Below are positions 27,256-37,952 of a DNA stretch of 64,000 bases, piece by piece (position 1 is the first letter of the stretch; every line of letters begins with the position of its first letter). The notes beneath the pieces are model-generated. The model did no database searches, was not told the DNA's origin, and saw only the letters and a list, made by a program, of their open reading frames with translations. Made by a program: the position numbers and the translations under genes. The stretch spans positions 1,612,001 to 1,676,000 of the forward strand of contig NC_091670.1 in assembly GCF_042453785.1 (NCBI RefSeq), written 5' to 3'. This DNA comes from Malus domestica. Its lineage: Eukaryota; Streptophyta; Magnoliopsida; Rosales; Rosaceae.

Positions 27256-28193
27256 AGAACAAATCACAAGATAAGTCTTGCTTCACTCTCCATTTCCCAT
27301 ACATCTTGCTAACTCATGCTATCTTTTTATAGATATAATATTCCAGTGAAACATCATGGCATTTTTCTTTCAGACGAAACAGTTTTTTGTCGACTCGTGG
27401 TTTTCTAAGAAAATTTCACCGACTGACTAATTGGCAACTTCATATACTTTCTGATAAATGATAGTGAAAATGAACATGATCTCAATTAAAGATCTACTAC
27501 ACAAAATACAAAATGCTGTACTAATTGAAAACCAAAGATTAATTGCCTTCTGCCTTTTCTCCAATAAGCTAGTAAATGCTGGAGTGTACGTATACTTGTA
27601 AGATATGAACATGTCATATACAACACCATTTTGTCTTCTCCAGTTGCTCAACGTAGAAATTAGTTTATGTGCAGACGTCTTTGCTTCAAATATAATAGCT
27701 GATAAGAACGTTCTCCTCAATAGAAGATATCCAACACGATAAGGAATTAGATTGGAACTAGAAGTATTATTCACCTGTTAGATTTGAAAATCTATCACAC
27801 ACGAGAGAGCGTGTGAGAATGAATCCTACATTAATGAGAGGAGGGACCTGGCATGTGCATATCAATATTTGGGCTAGTTCCCATATTACCAATTGATTTT
27901 ATGATGGAAACCCAACTTTCTTCAAATTTAACCCTTTGCCCACCAAGGTTTTCTAACTTCTCTCTGCTAAATTACTAAATTTTTCTTTTTAATTTTATAC
28001 AATTCTGTCTATATAACTTAAATTTGAGATGAAGAAGTTGAAAGTGATTTTATACAATTCCGGCTGTATAAACTAAATTTGAGATGAAGAAGATGAGAGT
28101 ATTTATGTGGATGCTGAGCTGTAGAGGCGTCATTTTGTTGTCTAAAGATTGACGTGAGGAAAAAAATGATATATTTTCTTGAACAAAAAGATG
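27256..28193. other. intergenic with an orphan minus-strand frame
   Basis: A 115-codon open frame at 27427-27774 (minus) has a hydrophobic C-terminal part, but no domain I recognise and no matching splice context. A ~45-bp phrase ('aaatttgagatgaagaag') is repeated at 28020 and 28074. The region is otherwise featureless. Confidence 0.35.
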
Positions 28194-28653
28194 AAATTGT
28201 TAATTTTCGAAATGTTCTGATACTGCTGAAACTTCTGAGATTTCCAAATCCAAACAGACTAAAAATTCCAAAATTTTGGAATGGGTAATGTGAAATAAGT
28301 GAATGCAACAGTCTTCTATAATTTTTCAAGATCAAAATAAGCAAGTTACAACTACTTACTGTTGGGAAAGTTGATAATTTATTTATTTCTTTTTGGTATT
28401 TTACATCTTAGTGTTGTGTTTATTAGTAGTTCTCTCCCTATCAAAGAGAAGCTGCCAGCAAGAAGTGGGGAGAGTGGGATAGCCAACTCTCCTCCAACAG
28501 TTATCCTGAATTCAAATTTTAGGTCTTCTAATTTTTCCACAGCTCCATTTATTATTTAATGCCACATGATAAAGTGCCCAACTTACACAAAATGAATGAT
28601 ACTTAGCAGAGCCGGCTTTTAAGGGGTGTGACCGGTGAGATCAAATCTTCTGC
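28194..28653. repeat. left copy of a ~460-bp direct repeat flanking the copia element
   Basis: It begins 'aaattgttaattttcg' and ends 'caaatcttctgc' exactly where the 3' LTR begins. The right copy at 35927-36394 begins exactly where the 5' LTR ends. By eye they differ only by a 9-base insertion ('aactagctg' or equivalent) in the right copy, one base in a 'ttta' run and one G/A substitution. The right copy continues into unbroken hAT sequence, and the left copy continues leftward into host sequence. Confidence 0.9.
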
Positions 28654-28891
28654 CAGAGGGACTAGGGCCGGCGGCAGAGAGAGAGAGAGGAGAGAGATGT
28701 GTGTTTGTAGAATTGTAGGGGAATGTGTGTGTTGTTATCCCTCCTACATTGTGCCTTTATTTATAGTAGTAAAGGGAGAGAAGATATTCCTTCTTCTCCA
28801 AGTAATACAAGTTGTAATAGGAAAGGATAACTAGAATCAAATCTTATCTAGGATTTACACAATCATACTTAAACTAGGAATGTTTACAACA
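28654..28891 (-). repeat. 3' LTR of the copia element, end-truncated
   Basis: It matches 35691-35926 and abuts the purine tract CTCAAGGGGGAG (minus strand) at 28892. A TATA box (TATAAATAAAG on the minus strand, about 28752-28768) marks the promoter. The outer 22 bases seen at 35669-35690 are missing, and the junction shows 'ctgc' of host sequence running straight into CAGAGGG. Confidence 0.9.
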
Positions 28892-29308
28892 CTCCCCCTT
28901 GAGTGTGTAAATACTCAAGGTAGATTCAGCATCATGCAGAAGTTCAGGAAGTCGACTCGTCGGCACTGATTCCAAGGAACAACGCTTATTCTCAATAAGG
29001 TAGGAACTTGCATAAGTAGTAAGTCTCACTAAAAAACCCTAAGGCTATGGCAAAAACCCAAGTAGGGACAAAATCCATAGTCTAAGGAAAAATGCGTGAG
29101 AAATGCAAAGTCAAAAGAAACGTCTACAGGACGTCATCAGGGATATGACCAGCCCAAGGTGGGTGCCTCGTTAAAACCTAGTTAGGTAGCAAAAACCCAG
29201 TGGGAAAAATGCTCCTAATCGTAGGGAAAAAGAGTACATTAAGATCAAGCAAGTATCTAGAAGATACTCCCCCTGAGTTTGACATAATTCCAAAGAGAAA
29301 TAGCAAAG

Positions 29309-32300
29309 TTACAACTCAGAAAGTTTACGCATACCAATTCCATGAACAAGCTTCTGAAACGTCGCCTTCGGTAGTGATTTGGTGAAGAGGTCGGCCAGAT
29401 TGTCTTGTGATCGGATTTGCGTGACTTCAATCTCCTGATGCTCTTGTTGTTGATGTGTAAAGAAGAACTTCGGCGCAATATGCTTGGTGTTGTCTCCTTT
29501 GATGTAACCCTTCTTGAGCTGTTCGATGCAAGCTGCGTTGTCTTCAAAAATCGTCGTCGGGGCATTAACGGTGGGATGAAGATCACAGGAGCTTCGAATA
29601 TGGCCCACTACTGCTCTCAACCAAAAGCATTCCCGAGTTGCTTCATGTAAGGCGAGAATTTCAGCATGGTTAGACGAAGTGGCAACTAAGGTCTGTTTAG
29701 TTGACCTCCAAGATATTGCGGTGCCTCCAACGGTAAAGACATAACCCGTTTGAGAACGCGCCTTGTGCGGATCAGATAAGTATCCAGCGTCGGCATAACC
29801 AACAAGGCGAGAATCAACCCGATGAGCATAGGGTGCGGCATCACTCGAGGATTCGTAGGGATAGAATAAGCCCAAATCCGTAGTACCCTTAAGGTAACGG
29901 AAGATGTCTTTCACGCCAGTCCAATGTCTGCGTGTTGGTGCATTGCTGTATCTTGCCAAAAGATTAACAGCGAAGGAGATGTCGGGTCTAGTGCATTGAG
30001 CTAAGTACAATAAAGCGCCTATCGCACTTAGATAAGGAACTTCAGGCTCCAAAATCTCTTCATCATCCTCATTCGGACGGAAGGGATCTCGCTTTGCATC
30101 TAGCGTACGAACGACCATAGGAGTACTCGAAGGCTTCGCTTTATCCTCATTAAAACGGCGCAACACCTTCTGGGTGTAGTTCGATTGATGTACTAGGATT
30201 CCATCTGAACAATGCTCTATCTCGAGACAGAGACAGTATCGAGTCTTACCTAGATCTTTCATCTCAAATTCTGACTTCAGGTGCGAAGCAGTTCTCGCGA
30301 GCTCTTCAGGAGTTCCGATGAGATTCATGTCATCGACATATACTGCAACAATCGCAAATCCGGAATGTGACTTCTTAATGAACACACAAGGGCATAGTTC
30401 GTTATTCACATATCCCTGACTAGTCAAATACTCACTTAAACGGTTATACCACATTCTTCCGGATTGTTTCAAACCGTATAGTGAACGCCTCAGCCGAATT
30501 GAGAGCGTGTTCCGGGGTTTGGAAATATTTGAACCAGTCAATGTAAGTCCTTCGGGAACTTTCATATAAATTTTCGTATCAAGATCCCCATAGAGATACG
30601 CGGTTACTACGTCCATTAGCTGCATATCCAGTTTTTCGGAAACTACCAAACTGATAAGGTATCGAAAAGTAATCACATCCATAACGGGTGAGTAAGTTTC
30701 GTCATAGTCAATCCCGGGGCGTTGTGAGAAACCTTGTGCTACAAGACGAGCTTTGTAACGCACAATTTCGTTCTTCTCATTACGCTTCCGAACGAAAACC
30801 CACTTGTAGCCAACGGGCTTCACATGTGGAGGAGTAGGAACTACAGGTCCAAACACCTTACGTTTCGCAAGTGAATCAAGTTCGACTTGGATTGCTTGTT
30901 TCCAGTTTGACCAATCAGCTCTACGTCGACATTCATCAACGGAACGCGGTTCAATGTCATCGCTCAACATGATCTCAGTAGCTACTGCAAATGCTAATGC
31001 ATCGTCGACAATCATCTCATTTCTATGCCACACATCATCTAAGCTAGCATAATAGACCGAAATCTCACGATTCTCGGGAGGAGGATTCGTCTCTTCAAGG
31101 ACGCTTCCATAATCTAGAATTTCCTCATGAGTTGGGTAAAATGAGTAAGCGATAGTCGGATTCACGGTAGGCTCTTCAGGACCTTGTGCCATGGTTTTCC
31201 TCTTCCGGGGGTGTGAATCCTTTGAACCAAGGGGTCTGCCACGCTTTTGTGTAGGGGCAGATGATTGGCTAGCCGCTAATGTACGTGGATCACCAGAATT
31301 GGCGTCCCGGGCTTCCAGGAGGGTAGTCCGTCGTACATTTGGTACATCCATCTTTGCAGGCGTATTCGCAGCTGGAATATGTGATCTTGTCACGCGCGCT
31401 AGATCGGTGAAAGCATCTGGCATGCTCTGAGCTATGCTCTGGAGATCTAATATGCGCTGCACTTCAGCTTCAGACTGAGCGATGCGGGGATCTAAATGAG
31501 ACAAAGTGGGAGTCGTCCACGATAATTCGCGTCGTTCATTAGGAACGTTGACGTTCTTATCTCCCCCTAACGACGGGAAGACTGTCTCATAGAAGTGACA
31601 ATCCGCGAAACGAGCGGTAAACAGATCGCCTGTCAAAGGTTCTAAGTAACGAATAATCGAAGGAGAATCATATCCGACATAGATTCCCATCCTTCGTTGA
31701 GGCCCCATTTTTGTACGTAAGGGCGGCGAGATCGGCACATAGACCGCACAACCAAAAACGCGCAGATGCGATATGTCGGGTTCGCATTCGGTGACCAACT
31801 GAAGGGCACTAAATGGTTGTGTCGCAACAGGCCTCAGGCGGACCAACTTTGCTGCGTGCAATATTGCATGGCCCCAAGCAGCGATCGGGAGCTTGGTACG
31901 TATGACCAACGATCGAGCAATCATTTGTAAACGCTTAATGAAAGCCTCTGCCAGGCCGTTCTGGGTGTGAACATGGGGTACAGGATGTTCAACTTCAACC
32001 CCAACCGACATGCAATAGTCATCAAAAGTTTTAGATGTGAATTCTCCAGCATTATCCAATCGAATAGATTTGATCGGATAATCAGGGTGGTGAGCCCTGA
32101 GCTTGATAACCTGAGCCAACAGTTTGGAGAATGCAGCGTTCCTTGTGGACAACAAGCACACGTGTGACCAACGTGTAGAAGCGTCAACCAAAACCATAAA
32201 ATATCTAAATGGTCCGCAGGGAGGTTGAATCGGTCCACAAATGTCCCCTTGAATCCGTTGTAGAAAAATGGGAGGATTCGAACGAATCTTGTCATAAGAA

Positions 32301-32893
32301 GGCTTAGTAATAAGCTTTCCCATAGAACATGTTTGACATGCAATTTCATGGATCGAACCTAAGCTTCGGGTTAGTGGATGCCCGTGTGAAGTTTTGAGGA
32401 TACGGCGCATCGCTATTCGTCCAGGATGTCCCAAACGATCATGCCAAAGTGTAATTTCGTGCGCGGTCCCTGTGGTAGGGCCGGCCACATAGTGGCATTC
32501 TATGGGGCGTATGGTCGTAGTATACAGACCACTCGGGTTACGCTCCATCTTCTCTAGAATACGCTTCTGGCCATATTCGTAGGAAGTTACGCACAGAAAT
32601 TCAACTCCGTTTTCTACGTGGGTTTCAGCGTGGTAATTGTTATCTCTAATGTCCTTGAAACTTAGTAACGTTCTTCCGGAACGTGGAGAATAGAGTGTCT
32701 CAGCAATGGTCAAGATTGTACCATTGGACAACATTATACGTGCCTTACCGTATCCTTCGATCAGGTTGGATGGGCCTGAGAGGGTTGTCAGAGGTGCATT
32801 CTTAGGTACGAAGTTAGTGAAATAGATGCGTTCACGCAAAACAGTATGCGTGGTTGCACTATCTGCCAGACAACTAACTTTCCCACTAGTCAT
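29309..32893 (-). CDS. pol: copia Pol polyprotein (protease, integrase, RT, RNase H), 1194 aa
   Basis: An uninterrupted frame. In order: a protease core (LADSATTH, about residues 9-16), the pre-integrase zinc-binding part (LWHDRLGHPG ... CQTCSMG, about 150-190), and the integrase core with acidic residues in GDICGP, RLDNAGEF and QNGLAEAF. A low-complexity linker follows. Next come reverse transcriptase (GYKWVFVRK, YKARLVAQGF, LYGLKQS, catalytic AVYVDDMNL) and RNase H (VGYADAGYLSD, HAEILALHEA, FEDNAACI), ending with the typical TKHIAPKFFF and QDNLADLFTKSLP. The order protease-integrase-RT-RNase H is the copia order. All expected catalytic residues are visible, so the protein may be active. It is separated from gag by ~254 bases and lies in a different frame. 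Confidence 0.95.
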   Translation of the reverse strand: MTSGKVSCLADSATTHTVLRERIYFTNFVPKNAPLTTLSGPSNLIEGYGKARIMLSNGTILTIAETLYSPRSGRTLLSFKDIRDNNYHAETHVENGVEFLCVTSYEYGQKRILEKMERNPSGLYTTTIRPIECHYVAGPTTGTAHEITLWHDRLGHPGRIAMRRILKTSHGHPLTRSLGSIHEIACQTCSMGKLITKPSYDKIRSNPPIFLQRIQGDICGPIQPPCGPFRYFMVLVDASTRWSHVCLLSTRNAAFSKLLAQVIKLRAHHPDYPIKSIRLDNAGEFTSKTFDDYCMSVGVEVEHPVPHVHTQNGLAEAFIKRLQMIARSLVIRTKLPIAAWGHAILHAAKLVRLRPVATQPFSALQLVTECEPDISHLRVFGCAVYVPISPPLRTKMGPQRRMGIYVGYDSPSIIRYLEPLTGDLFTARFADCHFYETVFPSLGGDKNVNVPNERRELSWTTPTLSHLDPRIAQSEAEVQRILDLQSIAQSMPDAFTDLARVTRSHIPAANTPAKMDVPNVRRTTLLEARDANSGDPRTLAASQSSAPTQKRGRPLGSKDSHPRKRKTMAQGPEEPTVNPTIAYSFYPTHEEILDYGSVLEETNPPPENREISVYYASLDDVWHRNEMIVDDALAFAVATEIMLSDDIEPRSVDECRRRADWSNWKQAIQVELDSLAKRKVFGPVVPTPPHVKPVGYKWVFVRKRNEKNEIVRYKARLVAQGFSQRPGIDYDETYSPVMDVITFRYLISLVVSEKLDMQLMDVVTAYLYGDLDTKIYMKVPEGLTLTGSNISKPRNTLSIRLRRSLYGLKQSGRMWYNRLSEYLTSQGYVNNELCPCVFIKKSHSGFAIVAVYVDDMNLIGTPEELARTASHLKSEFEMKDLGKTRYCLCLEIEHCSDGILVHQSNYTQKVLRRFNEDKAKPSSTPMVVRTLDAKRDPFRPNEDDEEILEPEVPYLSAIGALLYLAQCTRPDISFAVNLLARYSNAPTRRHWTGVKDIFRYLKGTTDLGLFYPYESSSDAAPYAHRVDSRLVGYADAGYLSDPHKARSQTGYVFTVGGTAISWRSTKQTLVATSSNHAEILALHEATRECFWLRAVVGHIRSSCDLHPTVNAPTTIFEDNAACIEQLKKGYIKGDNTKHIAPKFFFTHQQQEHQEIEVTQIRSQDNLADLFTKSLPKATFQKLVHGIGMRKLSEL

Positions 32894-33147
32894 ACCTAGA
32901 ATGAAAAATTAATTTGAATCGGTCACATGCATAAAAGTTTATAAAAACAAGTATCAATTCAAAATAATTTCATTTATTCAAGGATTAAAAACTTAATATC
33001 CAAAATAAATCGCCAACTAATAATCCAAAACATAAAGGAAAATTGTTCAAAATCAACCAAAAAAAAACAAGGTGGGGTTCGGCCACAAGGTGGAATTCGG
33101 CCCCAATTGTCGTATTTTAACTGAAAAATAAGTCTATGTCTAAGATT
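32894..33147 (-). other. gag-pol spacer with intron-like 3' end
   Basis: An AT-rich 254-base gap separates the gag stop from the pol ATG. Read on the minus strand it ends TTTTTCATTCTAG immediately before GTATGACTAGTGG, which looks like a 3' splice acceptor 2 bases upstream of the pol start codon. The donor is not identified. Confidence 0.45.
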
Positions 33148-34128
33148 CTAATCTTCCATAGGAGTGGTATCCTCCTGAAAATCAGAAACCTCCATCTTTG
33201 TAGTCTCCGGTTCGTCCACTTGCAGGAAGTTTGATTCAAACTTCGTACGACGAGAATGATATGCATCCACAACCTTCTTGGGAGCACGGCAAATACGGGA
33301 CCAATGGTCCTTGGAACCACAACGATAGCACATATCGTCATTCATTGTGGCAGGTGCTTTGCCCTTATTCTTGAAGTTCGGGGCCTTGGGAGCGAGGTTT
33401 GGGCGCTTCTGGGCTTTGTTTCCTCCCTTGGATGGGCCTTGGCTCTGTTGACCTTGGTGGGATGGCTTTTGGCCGCCCTTACCACGCCTCTTTTGGCGTT
33501 TTGGGTGCTGATTAGTGCTATAATGTGCTTCAGGCACAGCAGTAGCCCCAGTAGGTTGAGCTTGATGATTCTTCATCAACAGCTGGTTCTGCTTTTCAGC
33601 AAGAAGTAAAACAGAGATCAAATCCGAGAACTTAGTGAACTTCTGAGCTCTATATTGTTGCTGCAGGACAATATTAGAAGCAGAGAAGGTCGAGTAGGTC
33701 TTCTCCAGGAGATTCTCTTCAGTCAAAGTTTCATTGCAAAACTTGAGAAGTGATCGGATTCGACAAACTTCAGAATTATATTCATTCACAGACTTAAAGT
33801 CTTGGAAGCGCAAGTGCTGCCAGTCGTGTCTTGCTTCAGGCAAGAATATGTCCTTTTGGTGATCGAAACGATCAGCCAAAGCGACCCATAATGCACGTGG
33901 ATCCTCCTCAGCAAGGTACTCAGTTTGTAGAGCGTCATGGATATGTCTTCGGATGAAGATCATAGCAGTGGCTTTTTCAGCCTCGCCAACAGGTTTATCT
34001 GTTGCTTCTTCAATAGCAGGACGTAAGTTCTTTGCAGTGAGGTGGAGCTTCACATCTTGAACCCACTTGAGGTAGTTCCTTCCAGAAACCTCCAAAGCGG
34101 TGAAGTCGAGTTTGTTCAAGTTCGACAT
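33148..34128 (-). CDS. gag: copia Gag protein, 326 aa
   Basis: The structural protein that would package element RNA. The N-terminus (MSNLNKLDFTALEVSGRNYL) is the typical copia-gag opening. The middle is the UBN2-type gag region with the RSLLKFCNETLTEENLLEKT stretch. A basic, lysine/glutamine-rich segment follows, and then a single CCHC zinc knuckle (CYRCGSKDHWSRIC) near residue 270. The stop falls shortly after an acidic tail. The start is the first ATG and gives the family N-terminus. Intact by inspection. Confidence 0.9.
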   Translation of the reverse strand: MSNLNKLDFTALEVSGRNYLKWVQDVKLHLTAKNLRPAIEEATDKPVGEAEKATAMIFIRRHIHDALQTEYLAEEDPRALWVALADRFDHQKDIFLPEARHDWQHLRFQDFKSVNEYNSEVCRIRSLLKFCNETLTEENLLEKTYSTFSASNIVLQQQYRAQKFTKFSDLISVLLLAEKQNQLLMKNHQAQPTGATAVPEAHYSTNQHPKRQKRRGKGGQKPSHQGQQSQGPSKGGNKAQKRPNLAPKAPNFKNKGKAPATMNDDMCYRCGSKDHWSRICRAPKKVVDAYHSRRTKFESNFLQVDEPETTKMEVSDFQEDTTPMED

Positions 34129-35668
34129 GTTCCTATCACAAAATAGATGGACAAGATGTGGTTAGTGTAATGGAGAAAAATCAATCCATTCACATAGGAG
34201 TAGAACATACAGGTTCTAATAGACATGTATTGGTTTAATTTTGCATGAAAAACTTCGGGTTTTCATGGGTGATATGTTTAAGTGAAAACTTCGGGTTTTC
34301 TAACAAGGCATGTGTATAAGAAACTTCGGGTTTCAAAGTAATTATGAACTTCAGGTTCATATATTCCTGCAGGCAAACACAAATATATATGCAAACAAAT
34401 ATGCAAAGAATATATGCAGAAATATTGTATAATGATAAGTGAATTAATTTATTTTTGGTCTTCGGGGCCAAATTAAAGTGTGGGTGAAAATATAAAACCC
34501 ATATTATTTAAAAGTATTAAATAATAAAATCTCGGGGCCTAAAAATATAGGCCGAGTACCCCCGGGTGTAGGCTGCAGGCCCACGGGGTGAGAAAGGAAT
34601 GGGCTGCTGTGTGCAGCCCTAAAAAAAATTTCTCTTTTGTTTTCGGTATGGGTCGCTGCAGGCGAGCCCAGGAAAAATAAAAAAACAAATTGTTTTCTTT
34701 GTGGGCTGGGCCGCTGCAAGCGAGCCCAGCAAAAAAATTGTTTTTTTTTTCTTTTGTTACACGGGCCGAGAGACAGAGCCCGAGTAGGGTTCGGGAAAGA
34801 GACCCAAAAGAAATCTCAGCCGTGCTGGGTGTGCGATGCCGAAGAAGAAAGCCGGAGTTCGTGGACGGCGCCATGGCAGGCGGTGTGTCTAGGGTCGAGC
34901 AAGCCATGGTTCGTCGAAGAACCAGGTGTTTGTCGTCGAAGAAGAGATCTCGACGTCGATGGAAGAAAAAAAACCGAATGAATTCAATTGAATTCGAGTG
35001 AAGACCCATGAAATTCTTCTGGAATTTCTAGAAATCGTTGGTGAAAACGATGGGTGGTGTCCAAGTTTGCACGACTGCAGGTCGTGTTGTGTCGGAAAAT
35101 CGACGGCGAGGACCTAGGCTTTAGGCCGTAGGTCGGGACAAGGTGCTTCAAACGCACCGTTTCGGTTCAAGGCTTGCGGCCTGGGTTCTCGGTTTGGGTT
35201 GGGCCATCGCAGGCTGCGGGCCTGGTGGCTTGCGGCCTTGCATGGTGCAAAGGCACGGGTTCGACTAGAACCCTAATTCCCCAATCACAAAATTTTTTTT
35301 TCAATTCAAATATATTACATGTATAATTTTAATGAATCACATATTTACGTTGATGCATATGCAAATAATAGTTTCAATGCATGTACATATGTAAGATTCA
35401 ATTCATGACAAATATCAAATTCACATAATTGTAGCAATTTTGATTATGAAGCATACACAATTTATGTAGAATCTAAAATATGTTAAACGTAAAGTTGGGT
35501 CATGCATCATGGTGAATGTTCATGCTATCAGGGCTTGCAAAATATCGAGTTAAAAACCGTTGTTTGGAAAGAACCTGATTGCGTGATGATATGGATGAAC
35601 TGGTTTGATGCAGAAAAAATCTCCAACGTCAGATTCCTAAGCGCAGCGGTAGGAGCGTGCTGATAACG
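34129..35668 (-). other. copia untranslated leader
   Basis: About 1.5 kb between the 5' LTR and gag. It starts (minus strand) CGTTATCAGCACG just after the LTR end CAACA, the usual primer-binding area. The short frames in it (for example 34539-35009 minus) show no gag or known motif. Repeated phrases 'cttcgggttttc' occur near 34251-34350. Confidence 0.6.
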
Positions 35669-35926
35669 TGTTGTGGTCTATTTTATCTGACAGAGGGACT
35701 AGGGCCGGCGGCAGAGAGAGAGAGGAGAGAGATGTGTGTTTGTAGAATTGTAGGGGAATGTGTGTGTTGTTATCCCTCCTACATTGTGCCTTTATTTATA
35801 GTAGTAAAGGGAGAGAAGATATTCCTTCTTCTCCAAGTAATACAAGTTGTAATAGGAAAGGATAACTAGAATCAAATCTTATCTAGGATTTACACAATCA
35901 TACTTAAACTAGGAATGTTTACAACA
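35669..35926 (-). repeat. 5' LTR of the copia element
   Basis: 258 bases with perfect TGTTG/CAACA ends, a TATA box and a GA-rich R/U5 region. It is identical to the 3' LTR apart from one GA unit and the 22 terminal bases missing there. Confidence 0.92.
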
Positions 35927-36394
35927 AAATTGTTAATTTTCGAAATGTTCTGATACTGCTGAAACTTCTGAGATTTCCAAATCCAAACAGACTAAAAATT
36001 CCAAAATTTTGGAATGGGTAATGTGAAATAAGTGAATGAACTAGCTGCAACAGTCTTCTATAATTTTTCAAGATCAAAATAAGCAAGTTACAACTACTTA
36101 CTGTTGGGAAAGTTGATAATTTATTATTTCTTTTTGGTATTTTACATCTTAGTGTTGTGTTTATTAGTAGTTCTCTCCCTATCAAAGAGAAGCTGCCAGC
36201 AAGAAGTGGGGAGAGTGGGATAGCCAACTCTCCTCCAACAGTTATCCTGAATTCAAATTTTAGGTCTTCTAATTTTTCCACAGCTCCATTTATTATTTAA
36301 TGCCACATGATAAAGTGCCCAACTTACACAAAATGAATGATACTTAGCAGAGCCGGCTTTTAAGAGGTGTGACCGGTGAGATCAAATCTTCTGC
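35927..36394. repeat. right copy of the ~460-bp direct repeat
   Basis: See the left copy at 28194-28653. This copy is continuous with the hAT derivative that follows. Its last ~45 bases are the left end of that element. Confidence 0.9.
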
Positions 36395-37952
36395 ATCCAA
36401 AATGGGTGTGGTCTCTTTGTAGCTTCAATAAGTATTTGACACATATTAAATTTATGACAATAAAATTAAGAAAAGTTAAAATATTGAGTACGTGTCAGAC
36501 ATTTATTGTGGCCACAGAGATGCCACACCCATTTTTGGATGCAAAAGATTTGGTCTCGGTTCCATTGCACAGGGTCCCAAAATTTTGGGAGCCCCCAAAA
36601 ATAGTTTTTTATTGAATATAATAATATATAAAATAATATTATATGAAAATGATATATAAAAATATTAATCAAATCAAATATATATCTCTCTGATGGGGCC
36701 AAAAGGCATCAGATATTGCCCTCAAAAATAAATTTTTACTGAATATAATAATATATAAAATAATATTGTGTAAAAATACTAATCAAATCAAGAAATATAT
36801 ATATCTGATTGATTCTCATCACTGCCGCAGCTTTCTACTTTTCCTTCTCTCATGCCAAATCACATCGCTGCTCCCCACTTTTCTTCTTTCACATCATAGT
36901 TCCAGACATTAGAATCCCCCGCCGCCAGTGTCCATTGTACTTTACAGAGGCAGATTGTATGCCCTCCCGTTATGGTGTCATTCCTATCTCCTCCTATTTG
37001 TGCGATCACGATTAAATCACGTCAATATTTTATATTAATTTTTTAATAGAGATAATAAGAAAAAAATCAATAGAAATATAAAATATTGACGTGGTTTAAT
37101 CGTGACAGCACAAATATGAGAGGATAGGAAGGACACCATAACTTGAGGGCAGACAATCTGCCTCCCTACTTTACTTCTCTCTTCTCATTGTTCTTTTTCT
37201 CACAAATTATTAAACCTTAATTTATAAGTTCATGAAATTGAAGAAAAACTTCCGAATCATAAAGACAATTCAACTGATCAGAATGATGTAAACTTCGATT
37301 AAAGTAAGATATTTACTAATTTAAGTATATTGACTTGGAGTTTGAAGATTTGGGTATTTCTCATTTATAATAATTTTTTCCTTTTGTACTTTTCAGGCAA
37401 AATCAAGAGGAGAACAATCACAAAAAATCACTAGACCCACACGTATTGTGGACTATCAGGTTTCATTGTTCATACTAACTATAATTTTATTGTGATCTTG
37501 TTTGAAATATAAAAGATGACACCTACTAGAAAATATTCATCTGGCTACTTGAAGCGTCAAAATTGACTATGAAGGTTTAAATGGACTTGCTTTGATATCG
37601 ATTGAAAGTGATTTTTTAGACAAAATTGACTATGAAGGTTTAATTGATGATTTTGCAGCAAAGAATGCACGAAGAGCCATCTTTAAGTAAAACTTCAGTG
37701 CTAAGACTTTTTTAAGTTTTGTTTATTTGGTTTCTTTAGGTTGAACTTATTGTTAGTTATTAGTACTATGGTTACTTTGTAGCTTTTTGTACATTTAATA
37801 ATTTTTAGAAATAAATGGTTAGTGAGTTTTAAAGTTTATTTCAATATTACTTTTTAGCATCAATACATTGTTCAATTTGTTTTAAAATGTCTTATAAGAA
37901 AGACCCCTTTTATGAATTTCGCACAGGGTCCCTAAAATCTCAGAGACGGCCC
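36349..37952 (+). mobile_element. hAT deletion derivative 1 (ZMYM1-like transposase remnants)
   Basis: The left end is CAGAGCCGGCTTTT and the right end, reversed, CAGGGCCGTCTCTGAG, so the terminal repeats are imperfect. Inside, the frame from ATG 37516 reads TPTRKYSSGYLKRQN and stops at 37564. About 20 bases on, 37583-37690 encodes GLALISIESDFLDKIDYEG and ends FAAKNARRAIFK plus stop. These are the first and last pieces of a hAT transposase of the TTF-zinc-finger/ZMYM1-like kind (family recognition from memory). Everything between is deleted. The phrase CAAAATTGACTATGAAGG occurs at both 37558 and 37621. Confidence 0.7.

Follow-up and report, generated by a model that had tools for sequence, protein, structure and literature searches.

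Large duplications of host DNA beside an integrated element with a trimmed end have previously come from retroviruses in culture, those of HIV after drug treatment or integrase mutation. For the gammaretrovirus XMRV in cultured human cells, 13 of 15 integration sites had a 4-bp duplication, and one clone (C-3; 1/15 sites) combined a flanking duplication of 273 bp with the loss of 5 bp from an LTR end, namely the U3 end; uncoordinated joining of the two ends was suggested by the authors as a possible cause (PMC2857682). For HIV-1, a further study describes aberrant integrations that arise under strand-transfer inhibitors or with a weakened integrase. In most of them, one end is normal and the other is often truncated, the joints usually show short homology, and host DNA is most commonly duplicated, usually over far more than 5 bp, with lengths reaching hundreds or thousands. 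The second end was proposed to be attached by host polymerase and recombination, while the unperturbed controls contained no aberrant integrations (0/99 and 0/85) (PMC5041404).

In plants, tandem LTR-retrotransposon structures have been linked by their authors to single insertion events, with ordinary 5-nt duplications in 10 of 28 selected rice cases (PMC11899658). Those structures and the one presented here are both unusual LTR-element arrangements; there, however, elements are repeated, whereas here a single element lies between repeats of the host flank. Among the best-listed literature, covered by titles and the starts of abstracts (e.g., 15 of 572 and 8 of 1,061), we recognised no report of plant LTR elements with large flanking duplications; as these were the top-listed papers, novelty in plants is not proven.

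The locus of interest is contained in a 64-kb stretch of Malus domestica DNA (C10:1612001-1676000 of a 651-Mb genome in 19 contigs), referred to as the window. The window carries a Ty1/copia element on the minus strand (28654-35926), set between two copies of one host segment, as follows:

28194-28653, plus strand: copy A of the host segment, 460 bp, beside the trimmed element end, without 9 nt that are found in copy B
28654-28891, minus strand: 3' LTR, on the left side in the window, its 22 outermost U5 bases gone
28892-35668, minus strand: internal region of the Ty1/copia element, its ORFs searched in four pieces
29309-32893, minus strand: pol ORF, integrase core followed by RVT_2
33148-34128, minus strand: gag-like ORF, weak match
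35669-35926, minus strand: 5' LTR, complete at 258 bp, with an intact joint between its U3 end (35926) and copy B
35927-36394, plus strand: copy B of the host segment, 468 bp, continuing directly into the right flank
36378-36557, no strand assigned: long imperfect inverted repeat (hairpin) of about 180 nt, DNA fold z -7.8

The family is copia: integrase precedes reverse transcriptase, rve being found in the first pol piece and RVT_2 in the next two, and the 258-bp LTR has ends of the TG...CA type (TGTTGT...ACAACA), one outer end being trimmed in the window copy. The insertion event in the window is an exception to the 5-bp rule of this group, since no 5-bp target-site duplication is present. 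Thus, the window copy shares with canonical Ty1/copia integration the domain order, the LTR ends and the target profile at its intact end (see below), but differs from it in the missing 5-bp duplication, in a flank duplicated over 460 bp and in the loss of 22 bp of U5. The left LTR is identical to the full right LTR except for one extra GA unit and the 22 lost terminal bases; because the element lies on the minus strand, these bases are the outer (U5) end of the 3' LTR.

Two features of the internal region deserve mention. Some 620 bp of the 5' leader (34671-35293) are missing or reduced in 10 of the 11 family copies that were compared, the eleventh being uninformative, and are present at full length with 92-98% identity in 12 other copies; the copies that carry them would form a long-leader subfamily. 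Priming by the 3' end of a tRNA usually goes with a site that starts with TGG. The sequence adjoining the 5' LTR (35640-35668) starts differently, so an internal tRNA primer site may be used at this place.

XMRV clone C-3 resembles the window copy in combining a flanking duplication with one trimmed LTR end; the window copy differs in being a plant copia element, in having its U5 end trimmed and in a duplication of 460 bp. The window copy is best read as a plant example of an aberration known from retroviruses. We consider it likely that the integrase joined one end of the cDNA in a half-site reaction and that host repair attached the trimmed end, similar to XMRV and HIV. This reading draws on comparisons within the one assembly.

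The initial annotation had described a host duplication of about 460 bp that meets the element borders exactly, a 3' LTR without its last 22 bases, LTRs that are otherwise the same apart from one GA unit, and near-identical flanking copies; all of this was borne out by our comparison of the LTRs and junctions. Copies A and B are direct repeats of 460 bp and 468 bp; two indels, of 9 nt and, within a T/A-rich run, of 1 nt, and a single G/A substitution distinguish them. Copy B starts right after the complete LTR end at 35926, and the last base of copy A precedes 28654. In the genome search with the host segment, copies A and B were the only near-identical ones among the matches listed; the 14 other listed matches were partial and 67-85% identical, except for a 38-nt stretch (92%) and a 30-nt stretch (100%). 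At the site of the 9-nt indel, TAGCT is kept, as in copy B, in five of six related stretches that cover the place, and the loss is therefore probably derived in copy A. The 30-nt match, on C17, spans the substituted base and is 100% identical to copy A, which suggests that copy B carries the derived base at the G/A substitution. On C5, one diverged partial match to the segment (70%) lies at a probably homeologous locus; this locus was rejected as the empty site, being too diverged at 70-82% identity, with pieces about 9.5 kb apart.

Since the copies of the host segment are nearly identical and so are the LTRs, both the duplication and the insertion are recent and may have arisen together; for the duplication and the end loss, a single event, as had been proposed, is the best explanation. 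The small differences between copies A and B would also be expected if a tandem duplication had existed before and the element had landed between its units. However, this requires an exact hit on one of about 460 positions and leaves both the missing 5-bp duplication and the trimmed end unexplained. It was rejected on the exact borders and the lack of a 5-bp duplication, and we regard it as extremely improbable. Together with the end loss, these same observations support the view, put forward in the initial annotation, that the integration was non-canonical.

At the trimmed joint, a sharing of 'TG' or 'ctg' between the flank and the missing LTR end had been claimed. Exact microhomology was looked for at the junction and none was found; what stands of the claim is that TCTG is common to the flank (TCTGC) and to the lost LTR end (TCTGA), one base off the joint. 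In the microhomology test, a match of at least four of five bases is expected at 1.6% of random pairs. The exact joint of the window copy is in this respect unlike those described for HIV-1, which usually carry short homology (PMC5041404).

Further members of the family were surveyed for their mode of integration. At first look, candidates numbered between 1447 and 3113, the count varying with the query. Three genome searches, of which the best 40 matches each were used, yielded at least 68 other copies by count, and 62 of these were examined; owing to the use of the best 40 matches only, the sample over-represents young copies that closely resemble the window element. Six copies with only one end located (L022, L023, L026, L027, L035, L036) were left out, and one 401-base piece for L027 (L068) was unused. 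Both ends were found in 59 of the 62 copies; for the other three (C13:5.78, C11:11.17, C17:32.18), the retrieved sequence did not include a second end. An exact 5-bp duplication is present in 53 of the 59 resolved copies, showing that the integrase of the family normally works canonically, and in two more the duplication matches at four of five bases. Three copies (C5:4.17, C12:16.3, C10:6.63) have neither a 5-bp nor a long duplication in the fetched flanks, and the longer flanks that were checked for C5:4.17, C12:16.3 and the C9 copy described below revealed no additional duplication.

Some of these copies show peculiarities of their own. The elements at C10:2.00 Mb (L071, L072) and C17:5.58 Mb (L009, L039) share the same 12 flanking bases on both sides; by this identity they probably represent one event, which was counted as two in the 53, and the pair may be a recent segmental copy or an assembly duplication. 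At C12:16.3 Mb, a further family LTR (L142) lies about 1.1 kb outside the element that lacks a 5-bp duplication, which suggests a nested or recombined array. The element at C10:6.63 Mb (L099, L100, L154), likewise without a 5-bp duplication, contains about 1.8 kb of extra sequence some 60 bp inside its 5' LTR and is perhaps another aberrant insertion.

The initial annotation had called for a count of other family members with large flanking duplications, and this count produced one, at C9:9.11 Mb. Here, a 337-bp flanking duplication, 99.7% identical, reaches the element ends; the element has a complete U5 end, and at its U3 end the last base is altered. The duplicated segment occurs in full only twice among the genome matches listed. 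The rate of long flanking duplication is hence 1/59, the window copy itself excluded, an estimate that is loose, as it comes from only one further case. An assembly artefact or a haplotype mis-join that repeated the flank would account for copies A and B differing by few changes, as two alleles might, and the comparison drew on the assembly alone; nevertheless, the element ends match both borders base for base and the same kind of structure recurs in the C9 copy elsewhere in the genome, and we hold an artefact to be very improbable. Like most of the aberrant HIV-1 integrations, the window and C9 copies combine one normal end, an aberrant other end and a large host duplication; the HIV-1 cases are drug- or mutant-induced, whereas the plant copies arose without known perturbation (PMC5041404). 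Two cases in a young, abundant plant element suggest that the same failure occurs naturally in a genome's own elements. Searches for LTR elements that demand a 5-bp duplication would miss such copies.

The end that the integrase placed can be identified by means of a target profile. The profile was built from 50 canonical sites, i.e., the 51 exact ones then known less the shared one, against a background of 12,229 positions from the flanks of the same copies (mean score -8.5). It is an A/T motif that peaks at a distance of 7 to 11 bases from the duplication centre; its symmetry is by construction, as both strands of every site went into it. The median score of canonical sites is 5.7 (leave-one-out). 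The intact junction of the window copy scores 6.37, a value reached by 1.1% of the background, and ranks 33 of 2424 locally; local high scores are not unique to it, the best one within 10 bp being one base away. The trimmed junction, by contrast, scores -11.66, as do or exceed 68% of background positions (local rank 1749 of 2424), and its half-site falls below all 50 canonical left halves (leave-one-out minimum -5.4). Placement of the intact end by the integrase is thereby indicated in a statistical, not a biochemical, sense, and the other end, 22 bp shorter, lies off an integrase site. Since the intact end fits the profile and the trimmed one does not, the integrase probably joined one end and host repair the other.

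The C9 copy gives a similar picture at its intact U5 end, which scores 11.8 (0.04% of background as high; local rank 2 of 1899). Its aberrant junction scores 2.07 (6% of background as high; local rank 134 of 1899), and 10 of the 50 canonical right halves are as low (leave-one-out). This end is only mildly unlike an integrase site, which makes C9 the weaker, ambiguous case.

These scores bear on the capture of linear cDNA independently of the integrase, in which end joining would place it in a break formed by two offset nicks and the fill-in of 5' overhangs some 460 nt long would duplicate the flank. Patch-type repair is a source of tandem duplications in plants, and both the geometry of the locus and the trimming of one end fit such a capture. 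What argues against it is that the intact U3 end keeps every terminal base and sits in an integrase-like target site (1.1% of background), and that the intact C9 end does so at the 0.04% level. We therefore judge capture unlikely; the pure form suggested at the outset, cDNA captured at a widely staggered break, finds no support in a profile that the intact end fits and the trimmed end does not.

Unequal crossing-over between homologues that carry insertions in the same orientation, offset by about 460 bp, would produce this arrangement and leave no 5-bp duplication, and an earlier or later small deletion at the LTR end would explain the non-integrase junction at the trimmed end. Recombinant-looking copies do exist in the family: at C5:4.17 and C12:16.3, there is no duplication and the half-sites are within the canonical range on both sides, a profile as would be expected if they were recombinants of two proper insertions. 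The left half-site of the C10:6.63 element fits the profile poorly, being below all 50 in-sample halves, but it is not below the leave-one-out minimum. Yet, crossing-over needs two nearby insertions plus an extra deletion, the trimmed junction in the window being a non-integrase site, and it would bring together LTRs of different origin.

The LTRs were compared, using 35 full right LTRs from 48 loci tried. Between copies, right LTRs differ by a mean of 3.7 substitutions, with 0 in only 2 of 595 pairs; the LTR pairs within 16 ordinary copies differ by 0-3. The window pair shows 0 substitutions, and its left LTR matches only one of 35 other right LTRs with 0 substitutions. The C9 pair differs by one substitution, as against at least two between its left LTR and each of 34 other right LTRs (34/34). 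The LTR pairs thus fit a single cDNA, and the comparison disfavours a hybrid of two insertions unless these stemmed from one source in one burst. Overall, crossing-over appears quite unlikely to us, somewhat more so than capture.

Returning to half-site integration followed by host repair, we infer the order of the steps and the enzymes from the structure of the locus. Its layout corresponds to a stagger whose 5' overhangs measure about 460 nt, with the U3 end joined at the top-strand cut 28193/28194. In a first step, which the target profile supports, the integrase would cut the top strand between 28193 and 28194 and attach the U3 end of the cDNA alone, so that a host 3'-OH remains at 28193. 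In a second step, the U5 end would stay unjoined and lose 22 bp. The known steps of reverse transcription provide a basis for dating this loss: as the 5' LTR has a complete U5 followed by the internal region, the U5 end was complete during plus-strand strong-stop synthesis, and the 22 bases were thus lost after that step. In a third step, host repair synthesis would copy about 460 bp of the flank, either by strand-displacement synthesis of copy A primed by the 3'-OH at 28193, or by extension of the free cDNA end on host template, as proposed for HIV (PMC5041404). The trimmed end would then be attached by end joining or recombination, and the other strand would be cut or copied about 460 bp to the right, at the foot of the hairpin. 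With either way of priming, copy A is proposed to be the newly made copy, in agreement with its derived 9-nt loss, which may also be a later mutation.

The far end of the segment (36394/36395) falls 16-17 nt inside the left arm of the hairpin, the foot of which is suggestive, and no more than that, of a stall or nick site. With about 15 inverted-repeat places in 64 kb, the chance of a breakpoint within 20 nt of a foot is about 2% (estimated by hand). The intact end of the window copy has a weak fold only (z -1.7), and no such hairpin was found when the two C9 breakpoints were folded (z 0.25 and 0.55). The hairpin is a lead only, given that it has no counterpart at C9, and it was rejected as a general cause. 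It is probably a foldback MITE: near C17:24098670, relatives of the pre-hairpin segment and of the post-hairpin flank adjoin with a 4-nt overlap and without the hairpin. Plant LTR elements have been reported to favour short target palindromes only weakly (PMC6911290), which has no bearing on a long hairpin such as this one.

A wider proposition is that half-site integration is a recurrent natural outcome in the family at about the percent level and that repair synthesis, starting at the integrase nick and continuing up to a barrier, such as the hairpin of about 180 nt, writes duplications of 0.3-0.5 kb. We regard this as doubtful; if true, LTR retrotransposons would be a steady source of small tandem duplications.

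Two more inverted repeats are present in the window. One, at 1972-2974, is a 450-bp repeat with 100% complementarity and a 103-bp spacer. The other, at 36947-37164, is palindromic with 90-nt arms (89%), has many relatives in the genome and is probably a MITE.
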